NCBI GenBank assembly: GCA_028284195.1
Contig: JANQSE010000017.1
Span: 1-64,000, forward strand
Length of the DNA: 64,000 bases
Source of the DNA: Balneola sp.
Lineage (GTDB): Bacteria; Bacteroidota; Rhodothermia; Balneolales; Balneolaceae
Reading direction: 5' to 3'
Position 1 is the stretch's first letter; each line of letters begins with the position of its first letter. A program made the position numbers and the translations under genes. Below are positions 12,507 through 14,247 of this stretch, piece by piece. Below the pieces are notes generated by a model. That model did no database searches. It was not told where the DNA came from and was given only the letters and a program-made list of their open reading frames with translations.

Positions 12507-13253
12507 ATGTCCCATCAAAGAATTGTAAGCCTTGTCCCCAGCCTGACGGAGTTAGTAATTGACCTGGGTTTAAAAGACAGGCTAGTTGGCAGAACCCGGT
12601 TCTGTATCCATCCAAAAGGATTGGTAGAAGACATTCCTATCATTGGTGGTACCAAGAATCTAAACCATAAAAAGATCGGGCAATTGCAGCCTGATTACAT
12701 CATTGCAAATCTCGAAGAAAACAGAAAAAAAGATGTCGAATTATTGCACAATAACTACAACGTTAACCTCACAAATATAAACACCATTGAAGATGCACTG
12801 GGAGTAATTAAAGAACTTGGAAACGATTTTGATGCAGAGAAAAGGGCCTTAGAAATTGTTAAGGAAATTACATCTCTTCTTTCAATACCACTCCAAACCA
12901 AACCTAAAACGGTTGCTTACTTTATCTGGAAAGACCCCTGGATGGTTGCCGCAAAGAAAACCTATATAGATTCTGTTCTTCAACATTACAACCTGCAAAA
13001 CATTTTTTCTGACAAAACCAGATATCCTGAAATCTCGCTTGATGAGTTAACTCAAAGATCTCCGGAATTGGTTTTACTAAGCAGTGAACCTTACCCTTTT
13101 AAAGAAAAACATATGCAAGAAATCAAAAAAGTTTGCCCCGATGCTGAAATTCAACTCATCAATGGCGAATGGTTTAGCTGGTATGGTTCGGGCATGATTA
13201 ACGCATGTAAGGAACTGAATACATGGAGAACTACCGTAGATAATACCGGTTAA
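12507..13253 (+). CDS. Helical-backbone metal receptor (BtuF-like) without signal peptide
   Basis: The 248-residue protein has the fold of cobalamin- or iron-chelate-binding proteins: RIVSLVPSLTELVIDLGL at the N terminus, the DRLVGRT strand, IIGGTKNLNHKKI, and the PELVLLSSEPYPFKEKH lobe. Periplasmic BtuF proteins carry a signal peptide; here the mature-like sequence begins at residue 5 with no hydrophobic leader or lipobox, and no btuC or btuD is adjacent. It may be cytoplasmic, as described for orphan homologues in several Bacteroidetes-related genomes, or exported by an unrecognised route. Ligand is unknown. Confidence 0.75.
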   Translation: MSHQRIVSLVPSLTELVIDLGLKDRLVGRTRFCIHPKGLVEDIPIIGGTKNLNHKKIGQLQPDYIIANLEENRKKDVELLHNNYNVNLTNINTIEDALGVIKELGNDFDAEKRALEIVKEITSLLSIPLQTKPKTVAYFIWKDPWMVAAKKTYIDSVLQHYNLQNIFSDKTRYPEISLDELTQRSPELVLLSSEPYPFKEKHMQEIKKVCPDAEIQLINGEWFSWYGSGMINACKELNTWRTTVDNTG

Positions 13254-13368
13254 TCCTATCAGATTTTATCTCATCTTTCGTCCTGACTGGAATTTAGAAT
13301 TGCACGTTGATTAACTGCGAAACAAAACTTTCGGTGTTTATAAGTTTGTGCTTTTTATATTGAAGTGT

Positions 13369-13395
13369 GCGTCTTTTATCAAACTCATCGTCTTT
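13369..13395 (+). promoter_or_regulatory. Candidate ECF-type promoter motif before sigZ
   Basis: GCGTC (13369-13373), 15 bases, CGTCTTT (13389-13395). The same arrangement with the same 15-base spacer occurs before the cysteine-rich peptide gene. CGTC is a frequent ECF -10 core. The distance to the sigZ ATG (13404) is very short, which argues for a near-leaderless transcript or for the upstream CGTCTT copy at 13370 acting instead. Confidence 0.3.
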
Positions 13396-13403
13396 AATAT
13401 ACT

Positions 13404-13949
13404 ATGAGCACAATACATATTTGGGAAGAGTTCAGCGATCGTATTTATGCCTTTATACTGTCTAAGGTAAAAGACAGAGATCTGGCTAATGACATCTTGC
13501 AGGATGTTTTCCTCAAAATCCATACTAAGTTGGATACTCTCAACAATGACGAGGCTTTATCAGGCTGGTTGTTCAGCATTACCCGGAATACTATTACCGA
13601 TTATTATCGCAAGTCCCAAAAAGCCCGAAAAGAAAACCAGGAATTAAAGGACAATCTTCCATTATTTGAGGATGAAGAGCTCTCACAATGCTGCGAAGCT
13701 TGTCTGCATCTTTTTATAGCAGATCTTCCTCAAAAATATCGCGATGCTATACTCGCAACCGATCTTGGTGAGTTATCTCAAAAAGAATATGCAGTAAAAA
13801 TCGGCCTTTCACATTCAGGGGTAAAATCACGGGTTCAGCGTGGAAGGGTACAGCTTAATGAATACTTTAAGAAATGCTGCCTTCATAAAAATGAGTATGG
13901 AGAAAGCGAATGTATTCATAAAGACAGTTACGCATGCACCTGCAAATAA
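13404..13949 (+). CDS. sigZ: ECF RNA polymerase sigma factor, SigZ type, with cysteine-rich linker and tail
   Basis: This 181-residue alternative sigma factor has region 2 at about 5-75 (DLANDILQDVFLKIH, WLFSITRNTITDYYRK) and region 4 at about 103-155 (LPQKYRDAIL, LGELSQKEYAVKIGLSHSGVKSRVQRGR, a helix-turn-helix). Cysteines cluster at 96, 97 and 100 in the linker and at 158, 159, 170, 178 and 180 in the tail, giving eight in total. In CorE-type ECF factors a C-terminal cysteine-rich domain binds metal and controls activity without an anti-sigma factor, and the layout here suggests similar direct sensing. No anti-sigma gene is adjacent. Downstream lie an eight-cysteine peptide and a GIN protein that may be its targets. 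Confidence 0.85.
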   Translation: MSTIHIWEEFSDRIYAFILSKVKDRDLANDILQDVFLKIHTKLDTLNNDEALSGWLFSITRNTITDYYRKSQKARKENQELKDNLPLFEDEELSQCCEACLHLFIADLPQKYRDAILATDLGELSQKEYAVKIGLSHSGVKSRVQRGRVQLNEYFKKCCLHKNEYGESECIHKDSYACTCK

Positions 13950-13954
13950 AATCT

Positions 13955-14007
13955 GCGTCCATTTAAAAAACTTTCGTCTTACCTGTAAAACCTGCTATTT
14001 ATAGCAG
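13955..14007 (+). promoter_or_regulatory. Candidate ECF promoter and inverted repeat before the cysteine-rich peptide
   Basis: GCGTC (13955-13959), 15 bases, CGTCTTA (13975-13981), similar to the motif before sigZ. A perfect 7-bp inverted repeat CTGCTAT/ATAGCAG follows at 13992-13998 and 14001-14007, in what would be the leader or an operator. The small gene starts at 14033. Confidence 0.35.
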
Positions 14008-14032: not shown

Positions 14033-14116
14033 ATGAAAAATTTAACTGAATGTACCTGCACCGAATGCGACTGCGTTGTTACCCCCTGTAACTGCGATTG
14101 CTGTGGTGGCAGCTAG
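14033..14116 (+). CDS. 27-residue cysteine-rich peptide (metallothionein-like or peptide precursor)
   Basis: This is a small gene directly downstream of sigZ. The product begins MKNLTECTCTECDC and ends CDCCGGS. Eight of 27 residues are cysteines (7, 9, 12, 14, 19, 21, 23, 24), arranged as CxC, CxxC and CC pairs with acidic residues between them, and there is no signal peptide. The context supports a real gene: an inverted repeat and promoter-like motif upstream, and a strong intrinsic terminator 20 bases after the stop. The cysteine pattern suggests soft-metal binding (zinc, copper or cadmium) or a ribosomally made, modified peptide ending in CGGS. I know of no family match, and no modification enzyme is adjacent. 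Confidence 0.6.
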   Translation: MKNLTECTCTECDCVVTPCNCDCCGGS

Positions 14117-14136
14117 AAAAATCTGACCTGATTTTG

Positions 14137-14170
14137 AACTCCGCACGTTGATACGTGCGGAGTTTTTTTA
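14137..14170 (+). terminator. Strong intrinsic terminator after the cysteine-rich peptide
   Basis: An 11-bp stem AACTCCGCACG / CGTGCGGAGTT with a 6-base loop, followed by a run of T. It separates the sigZ locus from the GIN-domain gene. Confidence 0.9.
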
Positions 14171-14218: not shown

Positions 14219-14247
14219 CGAAACTAAGTGAGAATACACTCGTCTTA
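14219..14247 (+). promoter_or_regulatory. Candidate ECF-type promoter before the GIN-domain gene
   Basis: CGAAACT (14219-14225), 15 bases, CGTCTTA (14241-14247). The CGTCTTA heptamer is identical to that before the cysteine-rich peptide, and GAAAC resembles a generic ECF -35 core. The start codon follows 45 bases later. Confidence 0.35.

Follow-up and report, generated by a model that had tools for sequence, protein, structure and literature searches.

A SigZ-family sigma factor and an adjoining 27-residue cysteine-rich peptide in Balneola as a putative self-amplifying metalloid-defence switch

Introduction

What is the role of a peptide of 27 residues, eight of them cysteines, whose gene adjoins that of a SigZ-type sigma factor, and to which signal would such a pair respond? 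The question is raised by a contig of a Balneola genome (JANQSE010000017.1, assembly GCA_028284195.1), of which the first 64,000 nucleotides were analysed; this whole stretch is called the window below. An earlier note, made from the letters alone, had proposed that the peptide is either a metal scavenger or the precursor of a modified peptide, and that it is governed by the sigma factor encoded next to it. Here the locus is compared with its counterparts in the genus and with SigZ loci of other bacteria.

Results

A conserved cysteine-rich peptide gene beside sigZ

The peptide gene occupies positions 14033 to 14116 of the forward strand, from ATG to TAG with the stop codon included, and encodes MKNLTECTCTECDCVVTPCNCDCCGGS, with 8 Cys in 27 aa arranged in CxC, CxxC and CC patterns. 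The complete frame described in the earlier note is therefore seen. It lies 84 bp downstream of sigZ (13404-13949), and no other frame in the window reaches both 7 Cys and 22% Cys.

Orthologues occupy the same position beside sigZ in two congeneric genomes (MKSITECTCNECDCLVSPCGCNCCGTN in G100 and MKNLTECTCTECDCVVSPCGCDCCSS in G026). When these are compared with the genome of the window (G000), the frame, the length of 26-27 aa, all eight cysteines and the spacing between them are kept, so that the loss of frame and spacing in relatives that would have refuted the note is not what is found. Among the three genomes pS is 0.80-0.95 and pN is 0.07-0.17 by Nei-Gojobori count, and at four of the eight cysteine positions the codons vary among the congeners, in the third base only. 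Given that changes at synonymous sites far exceed those at nonsynonymous sites and that every cysteine is kept, selection on this frame is inferred to act at the level of the protein. By this pattern of conservation, and without expression data, the frame at 14033-14116 is judged to be real and coding. Neither Pfam nor NCBIfam, metallothionein models included, gives a match to the peptide at E up to 1.

Promoters and transcription unit

A promoter of the SigZ type, TGCGTC-N15-CGTCTT, precedes the peptide gene at 13954-13980 on the forward strand. It is one of two copies in the genome; the other lies before sigZ itself (13368-13394, same strand), from which autoregulation is predicted. The element common to the upstream regions of the two genes, as obtained from an alignment of the three genomes, is TGCRTC-N15-CGTCTT. 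Exact copies of it number two per genome in G000, G100 and G026, one ahead of sigZ and one ahead of the peptide gene, while the reversed control pattern has no copy in any of the three. The element is also absent from five congeners that have no SigZ match at E 1e-17 in the family search, save for one copy in G065 that lacks a T-tract. When up to two mismatches are allowed, the extra matches in the three genomes are scattered and occur at about the rate of the control, and for this reason no wider regulon is claimed in these genomes. In ECF promoters the -10 element is commonly CGTC. Given that the peptide has a SigZ-type promoter of its own, SigZ very probably activates both itself and the peptide, although the reading of this element by SigZ is inferred from co-occurrence, with no binding data.

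Between promoter and start codon lies a leader hairpin, CTGCTATTTATAGCAG (13992-14007, forward strand), which is the inverted repeat that had been noticed upstream of the frame. Its arms read CTGCT..AGCAG in the window and CTGTT..AACAG in both congeners, which is a paired change. The hairpin is missing at many distant SigZ loci and, not being general among them, is not taken as functional evidence. The strong terminator that had been noticed is likewise present: the transcript would end at an intrinsic terminator at 14136-14170 of the forward strand, with a 13-bp stem (14136-14165) followed by a T-tract. In the congeners a different stem and T-tract, read by eye, stand at the same place. From these features the peptide gene is predicted to be a monocistronic unit made of promoter, leader hairpin, open reading frame and terminator, and its 193-nt transcript has a strong predicted fold (z -6.7). 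A known regulatory RNA was considered as a candidate and rejected: Rfam matches were sub-threshold only, and the one to NsiR1, below its gathering score, covers only the terminator region.

The DUF2807 gene downstream has a conserved ECF-type promoter of its own at 14220-14246 (GAAACT/GCAACT-N15-CGTCT). Its -35 element is unlike that of the SigZ type and points to another ECF sigma factor.

SigZ and its cysteines

The gene at 13404-13949 of the forward strand encodes a protein of 181 aa. It contains Sigma70 regions 2 and 4 only (PF04542 and PF08281, both above gathering scores), as expected of an ECF sigma factor. The best-matching named family is NCBIfam SigZ, whose models (TIGR02959 and NF007215) give no function. 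The earlier naming of this neighbour as SigZ stands as far as the best match is concerned, but not at curated stringency, given that the scores are 156.6 bits against a cut-off of 168.65 for TIGR02959 and 170.9 bits against 212 for NF007215. The match spans residues 2-164 and ends inside a cysteine-rich tail.

The cysteines of the protein fall in the linker before region 4 (C96, C97 and C100) and in the tail (C158, C159, C170, C178 and C180). C158, C159 and C178 are conserved in at least 90% of 32 SigZ proteins, and C158 and C159 make up a CC that follows region 4 and hardly varies. The majority of SigZ proteins have a cysteine in the linker, but without a CXC; the motif is CCxxC in the window and CxxC in the congeners. 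Two further ECF proteins encoded in this genome have no such cysteine tail. Arsenite requires three thiols. In an AlphaFold2 model (mean pLDDT 87) the two sigma domains are good and the tail is poor (pLDDT 59-78), and no metal site is claimed from the structure given that the tail is poorly modelled.

No anti-sigma gene was found beside sigZ, the neighbours being a gene for a TroA-like receptor and the DUF2807 gene. The former, just upstream of sigZ at 12507-13253, encodes a helical backbone metal receptor of the TroA/BtuF-like kind that seems to lack a signal peptide. In both congeners, sigZ is likewise preceded by genes of similar size and cluster.

Cysteine-rich mini-proteins at SigZ loci

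GTDB genomes together with a phylum sample and a family sample yielded 124 SigZ loci after removal of duplicates, and these were surveyed for frames of 12-80 aa that have 7 or more Cys and a Cys content of 22% or more. Thirty such frames lie within 250 bp of sigZ and only three in the approximately 1.1 Mb beyond 1 kb, that is, 0.49 per kb near the gene versus about 0.003 per kb away from it. None was found within 250 bp of control ECF genes at 19 loci. A short cysteine-rich frame arisen by chance is excluded, given the strong enrichment near sigZ and the single frame of this kind in the window. On the SigZ tree, the association between mini-protein and sigZ takes about 12 changes, of which at least seven are forced by well-supported branches.

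The mini-proteins range from about 19 to 90 aa, and vary widely in sequence and cysteine pattern; examples are MSTKGTCTCTNCECSNCDCVNCKTNNCTCNNCNCCN (L043), MSEKEKSVKCECENCECSTCKCNCTCTDCKCG (L100, Deltaproteobacteria) and, in Flammeovirga (L088), a protein of 89 aa that has 22 Cys. Eight relatives searched against Pfam and six searched against NCBIfam gave no match. Across loci, the mini-proteins do not appear to form a single alignable family. For this reason, a function common to them can be argued only from promoter, position and composition.

In two loci (L062 and L063) the mini-protein gene is part of an ars operon, whose gene order is arsR, an unassigned gene, an arsC-like gene, acr3, mini-protein gene and sigZ. 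A Hymenobacter plasmid carries sigZ with acr3 and arsC and a nearby frame of 22 aa with 6 Cys, and on a Rhodococcus plasmid a 58-aa cysteine-rich protein, annotated as hypothetical and with a near-match of the motif upstream, adjoins a SigZ-like gene.

At five loci (L042, L055, L145, L048 and L056) the mini-protein gene stands ahead of sigZ under one promoter, with a hairpin and T-tract between the two genes, an arrangement that suggests abundant mini-protein mRNA and read-through into sigZ. In Paenibacillus and Gracilibacillus (L120, L124, L149 and L130), proteins of 60-66 aa led by a SigZ-type promoter have the pattern CC...ACC...AKAAGQDGCGC...CC, which resembles the cysteine-rich tail of ArsO-like oxidoreductases (cluster 2). 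By this resemblance, the tail of these oxidoreductases appears to exist also as a free protein.

A promoter shared with arsenic genes

The consensus of the promoters at SigZ loci is TGCGTCYTTTT-N10/11-CGTCTA. In 394 genomes the strict consensus has eight matches in seven genomes, every one of which is a SigZ carrier; seven of the matches are at the sigZ gene and the remaining one is about 5 kb off. The motif was not found in viral contigs. At SigZ loci this promoter leads, besides sigZ, genes for cysteine-rich proteins (35 loci) and for ArsM (24 loci), with ArsI/CadI, a SaoE/ArsP-like permease, DF-family or ArsO-like genes in eight loci; 13 more promoter-led genes fall outside these assignments.

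To assess the likeness of the promoters, a matrix was built from 16 arsM promoters and no others, with the threshold set at the 99.9th percentile of random positions in the same loci. Of the mini-protein promoters, 34 of the 37 score above this percentile, and the promoter of the window peptide reaches 22.5, compared with 15.1 at the threshold. By motif score, then, the window promoter shares a regulatory element with arsenic genes, as a member of an ars regulon should. The loci themselves agree in content, with ars genes (ArsM, ACR3, ArsI, ArsP-like or ArsK-like) at 58/124 SigZ loci versus 1/19 control loci, and at 23/46 SigZ loci when the phylum and family samples are taken alone.

For the genus itself, no ACR3 gene and no SigZ-linked arsM were found in the three congeneric genomes, where an ArsM homologue below the cut-off lies elsewhere, and no exact copy of the SigZ promoter motif was found at the arsM-like gene of this genome. 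Given the absence of ACR3 and of a SigZ-linked arsM, arsenic as the signal is inferred from other SigZ loci and not from this genome. On contig C13 of the genome (near 40956; L205:1498-3527) an ArsM-like methyltransferase of 351 aa with a cysteine-rich tail is followed by a radical SAM protein (327 aa) that has weak similarity to ArsS and to the Rv1681 family. These two are possibly an organoarsenical biosynthesis pair.

Discussion

Comparison with known systems

The closest studied sensors are CorE and CorE2 of Myxococcus xanthus (ECF44, now ECF238), which are described as metal-dependent sigma factors with a C-terminal cysteine-rich domain (PMC3107203, PMC8999054), CorE being switched by Cu and CorE2 by Cd/Zn (PMC3107203, PMC8999054, PMC9023288). 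SigZ resembles both in having no linked anti-sigma gene, in the linker cysteines and in a cysteine-rich tail that ends in CxC, as well as in the up-regulation of its own gene along with its targets, which on the side of SigZ is inferred from the promoters. The spacings differ: the SigZ tail reads CC-X10-C-X7-CxC, whereas the invariant cysteines of the CorE tail follow C-X2-C-X7-CxC (positions 181, 184, 192 and 194; PMC3107203, PMC8999054) and the CorE2 tail is given as CC-X3-C-X2-CxC (PMC9023288). The CorE spacing is thus not met, nor is its linker CXC, in place of which SigZ has CCxxC or CxxC. The regulons are also different, with arsenic genes and mini-proteins at SigZ loci versus the handling of Cu or Cd/Zn under CorE and CorE2.

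OrbS of Burkholderia cenocepacia is a sigma factor with an on-board Fe(II) sensor that is inhibited by iron (PMC9023288). It shares with SigZ a C-terminal cysteine cluster, the lack of an anti-sigma factor and direct metal sensing, the last being an inference for SigZ; its cysteine motif and regulon are other ones, and inhibition by iron contrasts with the activation expected for SigZ. As far as can be judged from sequence, SigZ may work like CorE, CorE2 and OrbS, its metal-dependent activity being inferred by analogy.

The peptide, for its part, is short and cysteine-rich, as are the bacterial metallothioneins such as PmtA (PMC11237414), and like them is presumed to bind metal through thiolates. 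It differs in being only 27 aa long, in having no Pfam or NCBIfam match and in standing under a sigma-factor promoter. SmtA, unlike the window peptide, is controlled by a repressor of the ArsR/SmtB type. The ars operons controlled by ArsR have arsM, acr3, arsC and arsI in common with SigZ loci, which differ from them in being under a dedicated sigma factor and promoter, instead of ArsR or besides it.

Proposed mechanism and alternatives

The reading that we favour, and hold to be probable, is that of a two-gene, self-amplifying metalloid-defence switch made of a thiol-sensing SigZ and a metallothionein-like trap. Through the cysteines of its linker and tail, SigZ, which has no anti-sigma partner, would take up a soft thiophilic ion, with trivalent arsenic as the likeliest candidate. 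Loaded with the ion, it would direct RNA polymerase to promoters of the form TGCRTC-N15/16-CGTC. Given that there are only two such promoters in this genus, their firing would yield further SigZ together with a short mRNA that ends at the terminator and encodes the 27-aa peptide. This peptide, a small trap of the metallothionein-like kind, would sequester the ion within the cytoplasm, and such buffering would also switch SigZ off again.

The coding and conservation of the peptide, the unique promoter pair, the recurrence of SigZ with mini-proteins and the identity of the promoter with that of arsM are read from the DNA. It is by inference that SigZ reads the promoter, that tail and peptide bind metal, that arsenic induces the switch and that feedback occurs, and there are no expression, binding or induction data. 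The claim of the earlier note for a metal-scavenging peptide under the neighbouring sigma factor is well supported by the promoter shared between sigZ and the peptide and by the same type of promoter before arsM, with metal binding itself inferred. Extended to other phyla, the proposal becomes a multi-phylum arsenic regulon in which an ECF sigma factor senses As(III) through its own cysteines and variable mini-metallothioneins of about 19 to 90 aa replace or accompany ArsM, a generalisation for and against which we see the case as evenly balanced.

Another soft metal remains the main rival to arsenic. The same architecture may answer to Cu, Cd, Zn or Hg, or to thiol or oxidative stress, with the peptide as a general metallothionein, and we regard this as unlikely but worth keeping in view: CorE and CorE2 answer to Cu and Cd/Zn, genes of the ArsI/CadI and SO_0444/SaoE types are also linked to metals, and the genus lacks ACR3. 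What counts against it is that arsenic enzymes predominate among the named genes under the promoter (ArsM in 24 loci), with ACR3, ArsC, ArsR and an ArsK-like transporter among the neighbours.

That the peptide is mainly a regulator, which strips the ion from the SigZ tail or delivers it there, or binds SigZ as a small anti-sigma factor or metallochaperone, seems improbable to us. The peptide typically adjoins sigZ under the same type of promoter and is the only other target found in the three genomes, as such a regulator would be, but at other loci ArsM is carried in its place. Given that the mini-proteins vary widely in sequence, length and cysteine pattern, a chelator fits better than a protein-protein partner.

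A precursor of an enzymatically modified metallophore or antimicrobial (RiPP) would also be short, cysteine-rich and provided with its own promoter and terminator. This option of the earlier note found no support, and we give it very little credence: no division into leader and core is apparent, the genes adjoining the peptide in the window are not maturation enzymes, and no maturation enzyme recurs beside the mini-proteins, where a Pfam search of 107 neighbours of mini-protein loci gave no recurrent family of this kind, a scope that takes in single-member families only as far as the 25 families listed. Within it, the nearby maturation enzyme by which a RiPP precursor would be recognised is lacking, and this candidate was rejected.

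Finally, a small RNA or attenuator with an incidental frame, to which the leader hairpin, the strong terminator and the fold of the 193-nt transcript (z -6.7) might point, can be set aside almost entirely, given that substitutions fall at synonymous sites with all cysteines kept and that cysteine-rich frames of quite different sequence are kept at other loci.

Significance

In the open-access literature, to which the search was limited, no description of a SigZ regulon, no link of SigZ to arsenic or to cysteine-rich peptides, and no treatment of an ECF sigma factor together with an arsenite methyltransferase were found, nor was an assigned function for the SigZ family found in the sources searched; papers in which SigZ and arsenic both occur appear unrelated, as judged by their titles and word counts. 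The parts are of known kinds, a metal-sensing ECF sigma factor and a metallothionein-like peptide; their combination and the families appear to be new.

What is known of arsenic sensing in bacteria concerns mainly repressors of the ArsR type and two-component systems. A sigma factor that has a cysteine tail and a sharply defined promoter would, if true, be a second and unstudied layer of arsenic control, at loci that span Bacteroidota, Bacillota, Chloroflexota and others. The SigZ family thereby gains a role that can be tested, and the mini-proteins under its promoter become candidates for dedicated arsenic or metal traps. Given that the promoter is very specific, it may be used to discover mini-proteins genome by genome, including those below the size that gene callers report. 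If the proposal is true, these bacteria would have an arsenic sensor of the sigma-factor type together with a large class of arsenic-trapping micro-proteins, many of them too short for gene callers.
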